A DNA stretch of 30,470 bases from a virus. The notes beneath the pieces were generated by a model, which saw only the letters and a list, made by a program, of their open reading frames with translations, was not told the origin of the DNA and searched no databases. Made by a program: the position numbers and the translations under genes. This document shows, in pieces, positions 3,239 to 15,405 of this stretch. The DNA is taken from positions 1 through 30,470 of IMG/VR virus record IMGVR_UViG_3300045912_000364; one strand, 5' to 3'. Each line of letters starts with the position of its first letter. Positions within the stretch are counted from its first letter, which is position 1.

Positions 3239-3838
3239 TCATTCCCCTGAGAATGGGTCGTAGTCCTCTTCGTAGCCGCGATCATTGGCGGCGGCGTTTA
3301 TGTCGGCATCTTCCACCACCGGGAAGTCCTCGGGCGAGTCGGCTACCCCAAACGAATCATCCTTATAGAGGAACTGAATGCCGCGCAGCCCGACGCCGAC
3401 CCCGCGCTTACCCGACTTGTCGTACCAGTAGCAGGACAGCTTCGCGTTGCCCCAATCTCCCGAAGTCCAGCCATCTCTTGCCGTTACGGGCGATCGCTGA
3501 CCGTCGATCACGATCGGCGGATACTCCTCTCGCGCCTTGGCCCTTACGAACCAGTAGCCGGGAAACTTCGGAACTCCTTCGCCGCTGACTTCCACATCGC
3601 CGTCTCTGAGCGGCGAGTCGTACTTGCCCTGACGCTCGCCAGCGGCGTTCTTGATCATCTCCGTTAGCTTTCGCCCGACCGCCTTGGGATCGTCGCAAAA
3701 CTCGCCCGGCTCTTTCGGGATTAGCAGCACCGCGTCGTAGCCGTGCGACCCGTCGAGTTGCTCGCGGGGCTTGAATATGTTCAGAAATGCGAACCTTACC
3801 GGCCCGATTACTGATGTCGTGTGCTTTTCGTTGCTCAT
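3239..3838 (-). CDS. Phage ssDNA-binding protein (Enc34/DUF2815 type)
   Basis: This 199-aa protein begins MSNEKHTTSVIGPVRFAFLNIFKP. It contains the family-typical early strand and KP, the YDAVLLIPKE segment, and a central stretch with PGYWFVRAKA and the RDGWTSGDWGNAKLSCYWYD block. It ends in GVGVGLRGIQFLYKDD. This matches the DUF2815/Enc34-type single-stranded DNA-binding proteins of phages, which have an OB-like fold and coat ssDNA during replication and recombination. The last ~25 residues are strongly acidic and end EEDYDPFSGE, an SSB-style partner-recruiting tail. The ATG at 3838 has AGGAGA upstream and overlaps the stop of the SWIM gene (ATGA). Confidence 0.85.
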   Translation of the reverse strand: MSNEKHTTSVIGPVRFAFLNIFKPREQLDGSHGYDAVLLIPKEPGEFCDDPKAVGRKLTEMIKNAAGERQGKYDSPLRDGDVEVSGEGVPKFPGYWFVRAKAREEYPPIVIDGQRSPVTARDGWTSGDWGNAKLSCYWYDKSGKRGVGVGLRGIQFLYKDDSFGVADSPEDFPVVEDADINAAANDRGYEEDYDPFSGE

Positions 3839-4290
3839 TTTGTTTTCTTTTCTCCTGTTTTGATGTCGAAATACCGAGACTGCGCCCGTTCGAGGTGCTT
3901 GCACCCCGGAGCCGAAGAGTAGATGTTGTAGCTTGACTTAGCTGCGCTTGGTGCGTACCTGAAGGCCTCGCACTCGCAGTCCACGTCCCCGAATACCGGG
4001 TCGATGGACAGATGGTGCTTCACGTCTTTACCGTCCCTTGTGAAAGAGTAGACGGCGTAGTGGTCGCGTCCCTCCGCGTGTCCGATGAAGCGGAGTTTGC
4101 GCTCAATTCGCTCGGTCTTTCTGATGTGCTTCCGTTCGAATCGTTCATACCTCTCTTCGAGTCGCGCGACCCCTTTTATGCCGAGGTCGCTTTCTATCTG
4201 TTCGGGCGTCCACCCTTTACGGCGCATGGCGAAATATCGTCGCTCCGCTGAGGAGTAGCCCGGAAGCGTCATCTCCAATCGCCTACTCAT
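3835..4290 (-). CDS. SWIM zinc-finger protein
   Basis: The 151-aa product starts at the ATG 4290 (MSRRLEMTLPGYSSAER), overlapping the end of the zinc-ribbon gene by 8 nt. Residues ~15-45 include RRKGWTPEQIESDLGIKGVAR, which looks like a helix-turn-helix-type region. A basic helix (ERYERFERKHIRKTERIERK) follows. The C-terminal half contains Cys105-x-Cys107, a gap of 22 residues, then Cys130-x-His132, with a typical SIDPVFGDVDCEC approach. This is the CxCx(n)CxH pattern of SWIM zinc fingers, which bind DNA or proteins. Its location next to the SSB gene suggests a role in DNA metabolism or regulation. Confidence 0.7.
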   Translation of the reverse strand: MSRRLEMTLPGYSSAERRYFAMRRKGWTPEQIESDLGIKGVARLEERYERFERKHIRKTERIERKLRFIGHAEGRDHYAVYSFTRDGKDVKHHLSIDPVFGDVDCECEAFRYAPSAAKSSYNIYSSAPGCKHLERAQSRYFDIKTGEKKTK

Positions 4291-4628: not shown

Positions 4629-4657
4629 TTGGCGGGATGGGCGAAACCGGGTAGAAT
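4629..4657 (+). promoter_or_regulatory. Rightward promoter directly in front of a leaderless start
   Basis: TTGGCG (4629-4634), a 17-bp spacer and TAGAAT (4652-4657) form a sigma-70-like promoter. Transcription would start 6-8 nt after the -10 box, at about 4664-4665, which is the A of the ATG at 4665. The upstream in-frame ATG at 4656 overlaps the -10 box and would not be in the message. No Shine-Dalgarno sequence precedes either ATG. Confidence 0.5.
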
Positions 4658-4664
4658 GGCGCGC

Positions 4665-5141
4665 ATGAACCATATCGCCCCAGTAAAAAGGCCACGCGGC
4701 AGACCCCGATGTCTCTCGCCCGCCGACCAGGTTGAGTGCGGCAGACTCGCCGCCACCGACAGCAGCGTCACGATAACCGCTCTCGCTAAACGCTTCGGGG
4801 TCTCGCGCCGAACCGTCGGCGTGTACCGCGATCGGTGGCTAAAGAATGCGCAGGCGAAAGCCGAGCATACGGGGAAGGCGCACAAAGGGCATGCGATTCA
4901 GGAGGCAGCCGCGAGCGCGATACGCGAAGTGTCGGGCCAACAATGCAAGCGCGTCCTGCTTGCCCTGCGCGCCGCCCCTGGGGGTCTAACCCAAGAGGAG
5001 CTATCAGTCAGACTCTCCATGCAGCGTGCGTCGATTTGCGCCCGGTGCGCGGAACTCCGAGAGGCAGGGCTTGCCCGGGATACGGACACTACGCGCAAGA
5101 CATCATCGGGCAGGTCGGCGAGCGTCTGGGTAGCTGAATGA
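4665..5141 (+). CDS. Double HTH transcriptional regulator with AT-hook-like N-terminus
   Basis: The 158-aa protein begins MNHIAPVKRPRGRPR, where RPRGRPR is a GRP-core AT-hook-like minor-groove motif. Residues ~34-60 (VTITALAKRFGVSRRTVGVYRDRW) are a clear helix-turn-helix of the transposase/resolvase-like type. Residues ~93-158 look like a winged helix: RVLLALRAAPGGLTQEELSV, then RASICARCAELREAGL, then a wing ending SVWVAE. It is the first gene of the rightward arm, directly after the operator palindrome, so a repressor or switch role is likely. ATG 4665 is preferred because the earlier ATG overlaps the promoter. It overlaps the next gene by ATGA. Confidence 0.75.
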   Translation: MNHIAPVKRPRGRPRCLSPADQVECGRLAATDSSVTITALAKRFGVSRRTVGVYRDRWLKNAQAKAEHTGKAHKGHAIQEAAASAIREVSGQQCKRVLLALRAAPGGLTQEELSVRLSMQRASICARCAELREAGLARDTDTTRKTSSGRSASVWVAE

Positions 5142-8718: not shown

Positions 8719-9672
8719 ATGGAACGAAGGAAAAAACATCTATCGCCGCGCAGGCGGCTACTACTCACGCGCGGACTCATCAAGGCGGGATCGGCTGACG
8801 CCTCGCTGCGTTGGATCGTCACCGGCATAGTTCTCGCTACGATCATGTTCATACTTGCGCTTATGATTCCCAATCTCGGCGAGACGCATGACGAGTGGGT
8901 GGAGTACAATCGACTTTCATCTCATCATTCTCCCTCCAACGGGGCGGCCAGCCCTCCTCTCACCGAGAAGGCCGCCCCACCAATTTCCCCGCGCTTGATG
9001 GTGCCAGCGAACTCCGGCTGGCCGGGCGTAGTTTTTGGCCTTCATGAAACGGGGCGCGGGGAATCACTTTCGGGCGCGTCCCCTGCCCCCAGTAGTCCGT
9101 ATGCGGAGCTGGTGAACCTTGCTGGCAAAGGTTCCGCGCCCGAATCGACTTTTGTCCCCTCATCGCTCCCTCCATGGGCTGGGGCTGAAAAGCCCCAGCC
9201 TCCTCCATCTCCGGTCATGGACAGGCTGATCCCTCGGCGGTCCCAAAATCGAGCGCTCGGATCAGCTGGGGATCGGCAGATTGAAAATGCACGCGAGGCG
9301 GAAAGGCTCTTATGGGCTCGAGGGTATCGAGAGCCGAAGGCCGTCATCGCGATGCTTGCCAATGCTTGGCACGAGAGCAGGTGGCGAGCGGATGTTGTGC
9401 ATCGCGAGGCTAATGGAACAGTGTCGCGCGGCATGTTCCAGCTGACGAACGGCCCTCTCACAGTTGAGGGCAACGTGGAAATGCTCACAAGTAGGGAGCC
9501 ATATGCCAGCCGAATTGCCAAGTGGTACGCGAATCACAAACGCTTCAAGTGGACTGCTGGAGAGTCTGCCTTCAACTTTGCTCGCCACGTCGAAGTCTGC
9601 GCTTCACGGTTTTGGAATGAACGAAAAGCGACTGCCAACACATGGTGGGCGCTATTGGAGAAGGAAAGATGA
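8719..9672 (+). CDS. Membrane-anchored lysozyme-like endolysin
   Basis: The 317-aa protein has AGGAGG before its ATG. A basic N-terminus (MERRKKHLSPRRRLLLTRG) is followed by one membrane segment (~32-51, WIVTGIVLATIMFILALMI), giving a signal-anchor. Residues ~60-180 form a Pro/Ser/Gly-rich linker. The C-terminal ~130 residues are the enzyme: AREAERLLWARGYREPKAVIAMLANAWHESRW with catalytic Glu219 in the HES motif, then SRGMFQLTNGP and later AFNFARHVEVCASRFWNER. This matches phage tail-lysozyme-type muramidases. The anchor suggests a SAR-like endolysin exported by the host Sec system. Its stop overlaps the next start. Confidence 0.75.
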   Translation: MERRKKHLSPRRRLLLTRGLIKAGSADASLRWIVTGIVLATIMFILALMIPNLGETHDEWVEYNRLSSHHSPSNGAASPPLTEKAAPPISPRLMVPANSGWPGVVFGLHETGRGESLSGASPAPSSPYAELVNLAGKGSAPESTFVPSSLPPWAGAEKPQPPPSPVMDRLIPRRSQNRALGSAGDRQIENAREAERLLWARGYREPKAVIAMLANAWHESRWRADVVHREANGTVSRGMFQLTNGPLTVEGNVEMLTSREPYASRIAKWYANHKRFKWTAGESAFNFARHVEVCASRFWNERKATANTWWALLEKER

Positions 9673-10322
9673 TAGGAACGGAACTTTATGCTCTACCTGC
9701 CGACGAGGATGGCTGGAGGGTATTGCCAAGCGGCAACCAGGTTCGACTCGGGCGCGACGTGCACATTGGAGACGACGTGAGGCTGGGAGACGATGTGCGA
9801 CTGGGAGACGGTGTGCGGATCGGACATCGTGTGTGCCTCGGAGACGGCGCACTCATAGGCCCGAGGTCAATCATCGGCGCTTGGTCGCATATTTGCCCCT
9901 CCGCCGATATTGGGGCGGACGTATCGGTAGGCGAGCACGCATCGGTCGAAAATGCCGCATCTCTTTCGCAGCACGCTACGGTCGGCGATTACGCACAGAT
10001 AGGCCCGTGGGCGACTATCTTCTATCACACGACGATTGGCGAGGGCGCAATCATCCCTGCTCATGCCTGGATAGGCGATCGCGTCAAGGTTCGCGCTGGC
10101 GTTCATGTTCCCATACACTTGGGGGAACTGACAGCCAATCCCTACGCCCCAGGCAGGCTTTGCATGGGAGGCCATGTTCATTCCTACGAGGAGTGGCGAT
10201 GGCGAGGGAGAGAGATCGCCCAATCGTCGCTTGATTCCCTTGACTGGTACATCGGCGTAGTCGAGCCCCTGCTCGACTACTTTGAAAGCGGCTCGGAGAG
10301 GCTCTTCGAGGTGGCGGCATGA
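9669..10322 (+). CDS. Left-handed beta-helix (hexapeptide repeat) protein
   Basis: The 217-aa protein starts at ATG 9669 (MIGTELYALPADEDGW), overlapping the endolysin stop, with AAGGA upstream. From about residue 22 to 150 it is made of hexapeptide units such as VRLGRD, VHIGDD, VRLGDD, VRIGHR and ALIGPR, later SIIGAW and YAQIGP. This is the [LIV]-G-x4 signature of left-handed beta-helix proteins. In bacteria this fold is typical of acyltransferases and carbonic anhydrases. A clear catalytic His insertion of an acetyltransferase is not evident. The C-terminal part is helical (SSLDSLDWYIGVVEPLLDYF). Its location among lysis genes is odd and its role unknown. Confidence 0.65.
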   Translation: MIGTELYALPADEDGWRVLPSGNQVRLGRDVHIGDDVRLGDDVRLGDGVRIGHRVCLGDGALIGPRSIIGAWSHICPSADIGADVSVGEHASVENAASLSQHATVGDYAQIGPWATIFYHTTIGEGAIIPAHAWIGDRVKVRAGVHVPIHLGELTANPYAPGRLCMGGHVHSYEEWRWRGREIAQSSLDSLDWYIGVVEPLLDYFESGSERLFEVAA

Positions 10323-10558: not shown

Positions 10559-11007
10559 ACAAGTACGCGGAGAACACTTCCGTCGATGTCGATCGTAGCA
10601 TTGGGGAGATCAAGCGGACGCTTCAGAGATTCGGAGCAGACAGATTTGCGTACTCCGAAGAAGCCTCGGAACTCAAGATCGCATTCCGCATTCGCGGATT
10701 CTCGATACTGATGCGAGTGCTGCTCCCGTCGCAAGAAGAGTTCGCCTCGACGGAAAAGGGAAGGACTCGCACCGCGTCCGCGCAGTTCTCCGCGTGGGAG
10801 CAAGAGTGTCGGCGGCGGGCGCGTTCGCTCGCGGCGGTTATCAAGGCGAAACTTATCGCCATCGACGATCAGGTTGCGACACTTGAGCAGGAGTTCCTTC
10901 CGTACATCGTGGTCGATGGCGTTCGCACGATTGGGGAGTACCTGGTGCCTCGACTGCCCGAGATCACGTCGGGGAAACTTGCGCTGCCAGCGAGGGCGGA
11001 AGGGTGA
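10555..11007 (+). CDS. Conserved phage protein of unknown function (150 aa)
   Basis: The product begins [33 protein letters not shown] and continues with [19 protein letters not shown]. Later come [45 protein letters not shown]. This pattern is a widespread small phage protein, usually found among early or recombination genes, with no established function that I can name. The alternating beta-strand start and long amphipathic helix are visible. It is coupled by ATGA on both sides, and the next gene begins as a DUF5131 homologue, a common neighbour. Confidence 0.7.
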
Positions 11008-11787
11008 GCCGCATCGAATGGACGGACGCGACGTGGAACCCTGTCACGGGTTGCACCAAAGTAAGCCAGGGGTGCAAGAACTGCTACGCCGAGCGGATGG
11101 CCAAACGGCTTCATGCTATCGGGCACCCACACTACCGCAACGGCTTCACGCTGACGACGCATGACCATATGATCGACTTGCCGATAGAGGATGAAAACAA
11201 CTCCACCGAGCTGATTCGCGCGATTCTGCCGATGAAGCGCTTCACAAAGTCAGGCATCGGCGTCGTGCTCGTACATCATGCCAGGCGCGGCAACAGCAAC
11301 GTTGGCGATCTCGGCAGAGGAGGGGGAGGACTATTAGGTCAAGTCGATCACATCGTCGAACTCCGTGCCTTTACACCAGACGACGTCGCTGACAAGCGGA
11401 GAATCATGTCCTTCAAGGGCAGGCTCGGCATATCCGAGCGCGTGATTGAATGGCGAGGGGGGGGTACACTTTGCCTATGTTGGAGACAAAGAAGGAGCGA
11501 AAAAGCACGAGATCCACTCCACCGTATGCGAGATATTGAAGTTTACAGCCCAACCGATGTCGCCGAAGCAAATCCTCGACAACTGGCCTGTTGACGACAA
11601 GCCTTCCAAACGCACCGTCGAAAGGCTCCTGAAAGCCGGCGTTGAGTCAGGCGATTTCGTCAAGGTAAGCGAGGAACAGGCGGGCAAATATCGCAAGGCC
11701 GCCAAGTACGCACTCCCCAAATTCGACAACGATTACGATCCTTTTGCTTTTGATGACGAGCCTGAGAGGGGACTTTTCGACGAATGA
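11004..11787 (+). pseudogene. Chimera: DUF5131 (Gp37/Gp68) start fused to RepA-like ATPase end, with a G8 frameshift
   Basis: Residues 1-54 ([20 protein letters not shown], with [14 protein letters not shown] and [11 protein letters not shown]) are the unmistakable start of a DUF5131/Gp37-Gp68 protein, including its Cys motif. From about residue 59 ([20 protein letters not shown], then [11 protein letters not shown] and [10 protein letters not shown]) it becomes the C-terminal half of a RepA/AAA-type plasmid or phage ATPase. The Walker A half is missing. At a run of eight G (11457-11464) the frame breaks. With seven G it would read on as [13 protein letters not shown] into the frame ending at 11787, a winged-helix-like region ([21 protein letters not shown]) and an acidic tail with YDPFAFDDE. 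A deletion joined two genes, or the assembly did. Confidence 0.75.
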
Positions 11788-11793
11788 GCAGCG

Positions 11794-11939
11794 CCGTGCG
11801 ACACCGTGCGACACCGTGCGACACAACGCCGTGTCGCACGGGAAAAGCCGTGCGACAACCCTTAAGGGTTTACATGCTTTGTCGCACGGGAAAAGACAGT
11901 GACCGTGCGACACGCCTTTTTAAGCGGCGTGTCGCACGG
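11794..11939. repeat. Eight copies of CCGTGCGACA forming an iteron/hairpin array
   Basis: Direct copies start at 11794, 11804, 11814 (10-bp period), 11848 and 11903. Inverted copies lie at 11831-11841, 11880-11889 and 11929-11939. They fold into three consecutive hairpins: 11814-11841 (11-bp stem, loop AACGCC), 11848-11889 (11-bp stem enclosing the palindrome AACCCTTAAGGGTT), and 11903-11939 (14-bp stem, T-rich loop). The array directly follows the RepA-like gene and precedes the late genes. It could be a replication origin with iterons, a multi-site operator, or a structured RNA. Confidence 0.8.
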
Positions 11940-12064
11940 CACTTGTCCTTGGCTATTCCCGTGACCGACGCGACTGGCGCATGTAAACCGCGTAGCTTGC
12001 GCCCACGACCAAACAACGACCCGGCAGCAAAAGAGGCGCAAGAGAGGCGCCACGGAGGATCGAT

Positions 12065-12952
12065 ATGGACATAGCTCTCAAGAACATTGAGTGGGGCGCT
12101 TGCATTTGCCCCCCCACTTGTAATTTGGATAAGTACGCGGAGATTGGGATCCACAACTTTCGATCCCACTATTGCCGCCCGAACTGGTGGACCTGGTGGA
12201 ACCTCGACATGCATGCGCGGTTCGCGGACGAGGTTCATTCTCGTGGCGGAAAGTTCATCGAGACCCTCGTAGACCGACAGCCCTGTATTCCGCCATTCGA
12301 CAACGGCGACAACCAACGCATGGCAATAAGCGCTGCAATCGCAACATGGAATTCGATCCTATTGGCAATCGTTCGATCGGAGGTGTCGGACCTGCGAAAG
12401 GCTATGCCGCCAACAGTCATCGGCGAGCTGTGGAATGGCGACGAGTTCGGTCCAGATTGTGGATTTCCGTGGGATCCAATGAGACCCGAGTTCTGGAAAG
12501 AGATGGGCCTCACGATGCCAAAAGGCTCGACAATCCGTTCCCGTTTCACCCGCTTCGGAAACGAGATTGCTGCCATTTGGGGTGGCCGCCTCATCAAGGC
12601 GACATCGCATGTGTATGTCTACCCTGAAGGCGCGATTCGTCACCGTGGTTCGCGAGTGCAGCCCGTTGTCACTGAGGTCGGAATTCACAGGACTCAACGG
12701 ACCCTATCGAACGCGATTCGACTTGCAGTTGCGCTCAGGCAGTCGGGCGTCACAGAAGCGTATTGGCACATGATGTGGCCGCACAACCCTGGAGATGGCG
12801 CAGCAGCGCAGCGCGGGGATTGGTTCATGTACGAGCTCGACAAGTACGAATCATGGCGAGCTCGTACAGGCGCTGAGTGGCCGCACTACGGAGGCGAGAT
12901 GTTGCGAGAAGAGCAGGCTCGCATGTTGATCGCACTGACTAGCCGGTGGTAG
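12065..12952 (+). CDS. Glycoside-hydrolase-like TIM-barrel protein (intact copy)
   Basis: The 295-aa protein has GGAGG before its ATG. Its layout suggests a clan GH-A type barrel. An early strand (IEWGACICPPTCNLDKYAEIG) leads to GELWNGDEFGPDCGFPWDP, with acidic residues 121 and 125-126 at a strand end. Then come SHVYVYPEG and VVTEVG, with Glu204 in the typical nucleophile setting, and a last strand AYWHMMWPHNPGDG. There is no signal peptide. It is clearly paralogous to the frameshifted copy at 949-1822, but the nucleotides have diverged well. The substrate is unknown; it may modify or degrade a host surface polymer. The call is from motif layout, not a close family match. Confidence 0.55.
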   Translation: MDIALKNIEWGACICPPTCNLDKYAEIGIHNFRSHYCRPNWWTWWNLDMHARFADEVHSRGGKFIETLVDRQPCIPPFDNGDNQRMAISAAIATWNSILLAIVRSEVSDLRKAMPPTVIGELWNGDEFGPDCGFPWDPMRPEFWKEMGLTMPKGSTIRSRFTRFGNEIAAIWGGRLIKATSHVYVYPEGAIRHRGSRVQPVVTEVGIHRTQRTLSNAIRLAVALRQSGVTEAYWHMMWPHNPGDGAAAQRGDWFMYELDKYESWRARTGAEWPHYGGEMLREEQARMLIALTSRW

Positions 12953-12959
12953 CAGCATC

Positions 12960-13490
12960 TTGGCGAGGAACAGTCGAAGCTCGACAGTGCGGCATGAGCA
13001 CGAAGAGGAACTGCTTGAGTCCTTCGATTCGATGCTAACAGCTTGGGCGAAAAAGACTCATGTTCCTCGAATGACCAGCGCAGATGTCTTGCAAATTGCA
13101 CGCATAGCGACGATACGTGCGATTAGATCTCACAAGCCAGGTGGCGCCCCACTCCGTGCGTATGTGATCAGAGTCGTCAGCCGTGCGCTCACCGACTTGC
13201 AGCGAGACGCCAACAGGCTGATGCGTGACCCTAAACGGGAGATCGCGCTGGAGGATGTGGCCAGTTGCTCGGATCCATTCGAATTGGTCGACGACATGGA
13301 TCTGCTGCAGCGGGTTTGGAAAGCCGCGCGTCCGGCGGACCGAGCTGTTCTACAGCTACTGTTTGACGGGCTACCGTTGCCAGAAATCGCCCGCCGGCTT
13401 CGCATTAGCAGCCGAGTTGCAGAGCGCCGCGTTGCTCGCTTGCGCCACATCGTTCGAGAGCTAGTGGGTGACGGGTTGCTCGAAATCTGA
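12960..13490 (+). CDS. Sigma-factor-like protein, probable late activator
   Basis: The 176-aa protein resembles a small sigma-70-family factor. Residues ~38-85 (SADVLQIARIATIRAIRSHK, then LRAYVIRVVSRALTDLQRDANRL) look like region 2. Residues ~120-170 (ARPADRAVLQLLFDGLPLPE, IARRLRISSRVAERRVARLR) are a region-4 helix-turn-helix. An acidic linker lies between them. It begins at a TTG 8 nt after the preceding stop, with only weak start signals, so the start is uncertain. Placed just before the lysis and structural genes, it is a good candidate to direct host RNA polymerase to late promoters. Confidence 0.7.
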   Translation: MARNSRSSTVRHEHEEELLESFDSMLTAWAKKTHVPRMTSADVLQIARIATIRAIRSHKPGGAPLRAYVIRVVSRALTDLQRDANRLMRDPKREIALEDVASCSDPFELVDDMDLLQRVWKAARPADRAVLQLLFDGLPLPEIARRLRISSRVAERRVARLRHIVRELVGDGLLEI

Positions 13491-14892: not shown

Positions 14893-15405
14893 ATGAGAGA
14901 TCCAGTTTGGGAACGGCAACCTGGCGAATCTCGAGAAGCATTTCGCGCCTTCTGCATTTATCGCGATCTCGAAGTAATTGAGCGGACTTACGATAGCGCA
15001 TTTCGCATCGGTTGTCCTAACACCAAAGCTAAACGGTGCAGCGGAAGATGGCGCCTTTGGGCATCTGATTGGAAATGGATAGAGCGAGCTGAAGCGTATG
15101 ATGCACACAAGGATCGGATGGCTCGAGCCCACCGTGAAGCGGAGCATCGGACTAACCTGGAAAGCTATTACGAAGAAAAGCGCAAAGCAGCATCTGCCAT
15201 TTCGAAAGCCGCGCTCGAATTGCTGATCAAAGCCCATGCACGCCTAAACCAAGTAAAGGTTGAAGACATTCCAATCGACAAGCTTCCAGCATTCTTGCGT
15301 GCAGCTGCGTCGCTTTACGACGCTGCCGGAAATGCACAAGCGGAGTCGCTGGCTGTCGATCAGATACTGGGAGTGATCAACAATGCCGCCACGACCGAGA
15401 GTTAG
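14893..15405 (+). CDS. terS: Terminase small subunit-like protein
   Basis: The 170-aa product begins MRDPVWERQPGESREAFRAFCIYRD. It continues with a W-W-RAEAYDAHKDR block (RWRLWASDWKWIERAEAYDA), a layout I know from DNA-packaging small-subunit-like proteins of siphophages. The rest is helical (KRKAASAISKAALELLIKAH), consistent with an oligomerisation region. It directly precedes and overlaps the large terminase gene. It would recognise packaging sites and control the TerL motor. A small hairpin (TCTAAC/GTTAGA, 14861-14881) lies just upstream; no ribosome-binding site is seen. Confidence 0.75.
   Translation: MRDPVWERQPGESREAFRAFCIYRDLEVIERTYDSAFRIGCPNTKAKRCSGRWRLWASDWKWIERAEAYDAHKDRMARAHREAEHRTNLESYYEEKRKAASAISKAALELLIKAHARLNQVKVEDIPIDKLPAFLRAAASLYDAAGNAQAESLAVDQILGVINNAATTES

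Follow-up and report, generated by a model that had tools for sequence, protein, structure and literature searches.

The window, a complete virus record of 30,470 bp, contains at positions 11794-11939 (146 bp) eight exact copies of the 10-mer CCGTGCGACA in the order +++-+-+-, five on the plus strand (starting at 11794, 11804, 11814, 11848 and 11903) and three on the minus strand (11832, 11880 and 11930). The array starts 7 bases past the stop codon (11787) of the remnant of a gene for a RepA-like helicase and is followed by a gene for a 295-aa protein (12065-12952). The features of the locus are the following:

11004-11195, plus strand: fragment encoding the N-terminus of DUF5131 (Pfam PF07505, residues 2-65, E 2.2e-21), which continues in frame into the RepA part
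11190-11787, plus strand: 3' part of the RepA-like (AAA_25, RecA-fold) helicase gene, with the Walker A part missing and a frame break in the G run at 11458-11465
11509-11670, plus strand: predicted C-terminal winged-helix domain of RepA, the proposed reader of the sites (AlphaFold2 model, weak Foldseek matches)
11794-11823, plus strand: sites 1-3, three copies of CCGTGCGACA in 10-bp tandem, starting at 11794, 11804 and 11814 (TRF)
11832-11841, minus strand: site 4, inverted partner of site 3 in hairpin 1 (11814-11841; word search, fold, comparison with contig L259)
11848-11857, plus strand: site 5 (word search, comparison with L259)
11858-11869, no strand: inner palindrome ACCCTTAAGGGT within hairpin 2, with a CTTAAG core that is kept in contigs L259 and L444
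11880-11889, minus strand: site 6, inverted partner of site 5 in hairpin 2 (11848-11889; word search, fold, comparison with L259)
11903-11912, plus strand: site 7 (word search, comparison with L259)
11930-11939, minus strand: site 8, inverted partner of site 7 in hairpin 3 (11903-11939; word search, fold, comparison with L259)
12065-12952, plus strand: gene for the 295-aa protein, found at the same place in the window, L259 and L444 (52-53% identity)

A search of the entire 30,470-bp record yielded no further exact copy of CCGTGCGACA outside the array. The core word of the sites is TGCGACA, and the commonest 7-mer within the 500 bp 3' of repA occurs 8 times, against a maximum of 4 in dinucleotide shuffles (n=200). 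The first three copies form a perfect 10-bp tandem (TRF, 11794-11824). As a whole the array folds at -95.5 kcal/mol (z = -8.3), which was equalled by none of 200 shuffles, and the fold consists of three hairpins that each also form when folded alone. In this way word search, TRF and folding agree with the first-pass annotation, in which eight copies of a 10-mer, three of them tandem and the others paired as inverted repeats, were described as forming three stems within 146 bp; to this description should be added that the middle stem holds a palindrome of its own.

The array had also been described as lying behind a RepA-like gene, which is correct with respect to its position but not with respect to the state of the gene, as only the 3' part is present, fused to DUF5131 and broken in its frame. 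The AAA_25-type ATPase end in the open reading frame from 11004 gives by itself a weak match (E 0.17), and after the G run the C-terminal part of RepA continues to 11787 in another frame. The closest relative, L259, carries the same repA region in one unbroken frame, and its product has a match to a PHROG of replicative helicase-primases (E 3.8e-5). The repA in the window is a broken remnant that may have arisen from a deletion or from an assembly error; given that it is broken in this record, this copy may be unable to replicate on its own. In an AlphaFold2 model of the 113 C-terminal residues of RepA, with a mean pLDDT of 71 that rises to 84-88 for residues 21-70 of P0002, three helices precede two strands. 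Foldseek matches to this model were weak (best E 1.9e-3) and largely represented winged-helix domains; the C-terminus is modelled, with moderate confidence, as a winged helix.

On the 3' side of the array the genes run on towards those of a sigma-like protein, a CHAP endolysin and the terminase, the small subunit of which is encoded 3 kb downstream (14893-15405). The 295-aa protein had no Pfam match. The sigma-like protein (12960-13490), encoded past the array and ahead of the terminase genes, belongs to the Sigma-70 family (Sigma70_r2, ECF-like) and could drive the late genes. Elsewhere in the window, an Enc34-type ssDNA-binding protein is encoded on the opposite strand (3239-3904, minus), consistent with a phage-coded replication module, and another candidate DNA-binding protein, with two HTH domains, at 4629-5141. 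Other repeats include a 15/45-bp tandem repeat (1877-2307) in the reading frame of an extensin-like low-complexity protein (1871-2470, plus) and an 18-bp tandem repeat (9768-9817) in a hexapeptide-repeat gene (9642-10322).

Considerable information was obtained from two distinct metagenomic phage contigs, L259 and L444, which share 71-81% DNA identity in their matched parts and of which the RepA C-termini are 47% and 43% identical to that of the window, respectively. Both encode a homolog of the 295-aa protein 3' of the array, which indicates that the position of the array is conserved. Order (+++-+-+-) and similar spacing of the sites are common to all three, as can be seen from the starts of the core word in the window (11797, 11807, 11817, 11832, 11851, 11880, 11906, 11930) and of the sites in L259 (570, 579, 589, 606, 623, 654, 679, 705). 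The word itself has changed, from TGCGACA in the window to TGCGTCA in L259 and L444. Two of the eight sites in L259 carry one mismatch and there is one extra near-site; some copies in L444 are imperfect too. The hairpin stems are largely kept in L259. A change of the word in concert, with the order fixed, is what one would expect if a single protein reads all sites, and RNA pairing needs no such change. Absence of the repeats from close relatives had been put forward as a refutation of the first-pass reading; this criterion would have been misleading, as the closest relatives indeed lack the 10-mer, yet they keep the eight-site array with an altered word. An exact-word search with CCGTGCGACACCGTGCGACA recovered only two other viral contigs. 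The C-terminal tail of RepA in L259 and L444, DPFAFDEEPSQQELFE, resembles QxxLF, a motif for binding of sliding clamps.

To keep the choice independent of the word, genes were selected by Pfam family; they came from 200 genomes that belong to a single phylum. For the 500 bp flanking each gene on either side, the 7-mer with the most copies was compared with dinucleotide shuffles at a threshold of p <= 0.005, the smallest value possible with 200 shuffles. Arrays were found within 500 bp 3' of 37 of the 76 genes for AAA_25, DUF3987 and VapE proteins together (17/30, 11/28 and 9/18, respectively), although these counts are partly non-independent, since the sample includes closely related genes (the CGTTCCC group). 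No significant 3' array was present at about half of the helicase genes in the sample. The 5' sides of the same families yielded none (0/22, 0/18 and 0/9; 0/49 in total), and around the terminase genes (PF03237) that served as control there was one array in 30 on the 3' side and none in 30 on the 5' side. The words varied from gene to gene and included CGTTCCC, GGCGCAC, CCGGCAA, TGCGCCA, GTGGTCA and GGTAACA, among others, with TGCGACA as one word among many (L385 only).

When arrays were searched by the pattern TGCGACA instead, many among the matches listed lay 3' of DUF3987, VapE and AAA_25 primase-helicase genes, next to coding repeats and a small number of arrays at other genes; the matches in L059 and L070, being coding repeats, were set aside. 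The scan for three copies of the word gave, among the matches listed, 58 of 123 inside open reading frames and 36 of mixed orientation, against 95 of 119 and 10, respectively, among those listed for the reversed-word control. Considering the abundance of the control and the single occurrence in the gene-chosen sample, the idea of TGCGACA as a universal word was dropped. TGCGACA arrays were also observed 3' of DUF455 genes (L261, 1184-1283; L334, 4303-4411), where no adjacent replication gene was recognized.

Of the readings offered in the first-pass annotation, an iteron origin, a multi-site operator and a structured RNA, the first has good support from the comparison and the other two explain less. 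We estimate at roughly three in four the probability that the array provides the iterons of the replication origin of the phage, bound by the C-terminal domain of RepA. The eight 10-bp sites would be bound by the winged helix of the helicase encoded just upstream, so that helicase subunits facing both ways would assemble around the inner palindrome; there the duplex would open, possibly aided by hairpin extrusion, and replication would start. This reading as a putative origin was made by analogy with the SaPI/PICI Rep-ori. Counted against it are the damaged repA, the AT content, which at the array stays within background with no AT-rich stretch exceeding it, and the GC skew, which had been proposed as a check for an origin and shows no switch there, as well as the weak Foldseek matches for the winged helix and the share of about half of the sampled helicase genes that have no significant array.

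Mechanisms of this type are already known. The Rep of SaPIs reads, with its C-terminal domain, iterons directly downstream of its gene (PMC7581432), and in one Gram-negative PICI the 3' region is needed for plasmid maintenance with the pri-rep gene (PMC6092414). In these systems, as in the window, the gene of the initiator helicase is immediately followed by short repeats (PMC7581432, PMC6092414), and their Rep has a C-terminal DNA-binding domain, the candidate counterpart of which in the window is the predicted winged helix, a model of moderate confidence with weak Foldseek matches. The window differs in that its helicase is of the RecA-fold AAA_25 type and its genome that of a tailed phage, in its alternating sites instead of an AT-rich center between two iteron sets, and in having three hairpins and a nested palindrome. 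Moreover, unlike a PICI, a satellite without late genes of its own, the record encodes both terminase subunits, small and large, and a long late region. The isolated C-terminal domain of SCCmec Cch2 binds to direct repeats that lie behind the gene encoding it, at a putative origin (PMC7581432), but Cch2 is a D5/Primase_Cterm helicase and there are only three iterons, of the AAGTG type and in direct repeat. The origin of the archaeal plasmid pRN1 forms a hairpin and lies 3' of a gene for a replication protein with a winged-helix domain (PMC4234260), as the window has hairpins 3' of a gene with a modelled one, but in pRN1 it is one 100-bp stem-loop without iterons, and the protein is an archaeal-type primase with an SF3 helicase. 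Finally, the origin of the phage satellite PLE has repeats bound by its own RepA (PMC7145576), an initiator of the RepA_N family that is, unlike that of the window, not itself a helicase.

The array could instead be a multi-site operator or copy-control locus, where binding of RepA or another phage protein switches early to late transcription or limits replication without marking the start site. Its location between repA and the genes leading to the sigma-like protein, endolysin and terminase would suit this, as would the presence of other DNA-binding candidates (4629-5141, with two HTH domains), but no sigma-70-type promoter was found in 11500-12200, and in the various elements arrays come after helicase genes that belong to several families, with none on the 5' side, which makes this explanation unlikely. 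Even less probable is that the array acts as a structured RNA or as a terminator within a transcript that reads through from repA into the genes behind it. The very stable fold (z -8.3) and the largely retained stems in L259 speak for it; however, stems do not require three tandem direct copies, and separate stems need no common word, yet all sites share the word and change it together. In addition, there were no Rfam matches at gathering score, and a terminator scan gave 2 sites against 1.0 expected, neither of which is a hairpin of the array with a clear T tail. That the terminase small subunit reads the array as a packaging (pac-like) site is the most improbable of the three, since, even though repeated sites upstream of terminase genes would fit and terminase-like genes also lie 3' in several array-bearing contigs, the arrays go with helicase genes, occur at 1/30 and 0/30 on the two sides of terminase large subunit genes, and the relatives found via terminase (L250-L258) have no TGCGACA array. 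A host REP-like element, for which scattered copies had been named as the sign, was rejected, as the record holds a single array, beside a replication gene.

Returning to the iteron origin, the survey suggests that the 3'-adjacent iteron part, at least, is common. A broader proposal, to which we give even odds, is that 3'-adjacent arrays with a word particular to each are no hallmark of PICIs but the general form of origin used by the replication helicases of phages and prophages, in at least three families (AAA_25, DUF3987 and VapE), that winged helix and word co-evolve, the word changing in concert with the order fixed, and that the point of opening or priming is marked in a subset by a nested CCCCTWWAGGGG palindrome. 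Palindromes of the CCCCTWWAGGGG form were present within 500 bp 3' of 7 of 60 AAA_25/DUF3987 genes, and in 0/60 on the 5' side, 0/22 VapE 3' regions and 0/30 terminase 3' regions, counts that provide a lead and no test, as the pattern was defined after some of the cases had been seen. The loci are L412, L420, L421, L424, L429, L432 and L433, besides 11858-11869 in the window; in L432 the palindrome lies, like in the window, inside inverted sites, there of the TCGGACA type. The CCCCTWWAGGGG-type palindrome is a possible second origin element. No claim is made for the CATTGATTTA motif that occurs in some arrays, given that the loci are too few.

In the part of the literature that was searched, we found no earlier description of the word or of such arrays for these phage families. 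If the proposal is true, the origins of many uncultured phages and prophages could be read from sequence, as a repeated word within 500 bp past a helicase gene, and the helicase/word pairs would constitute a natural series for learning how winged-helix domains pick their DNA word. Among named phages, searches with the RepA part of L259 and with the 295-aa protein gave no match. In Rhodoferax phage P26218, non-coding DNA a short way 3' of the helicase gene contains CTGCTACA repeats, and in Microcystis phage Mae-Yong1326-1 the gene for a RecA-family ATPase has GACTGGCGC repeats on its 3' side.
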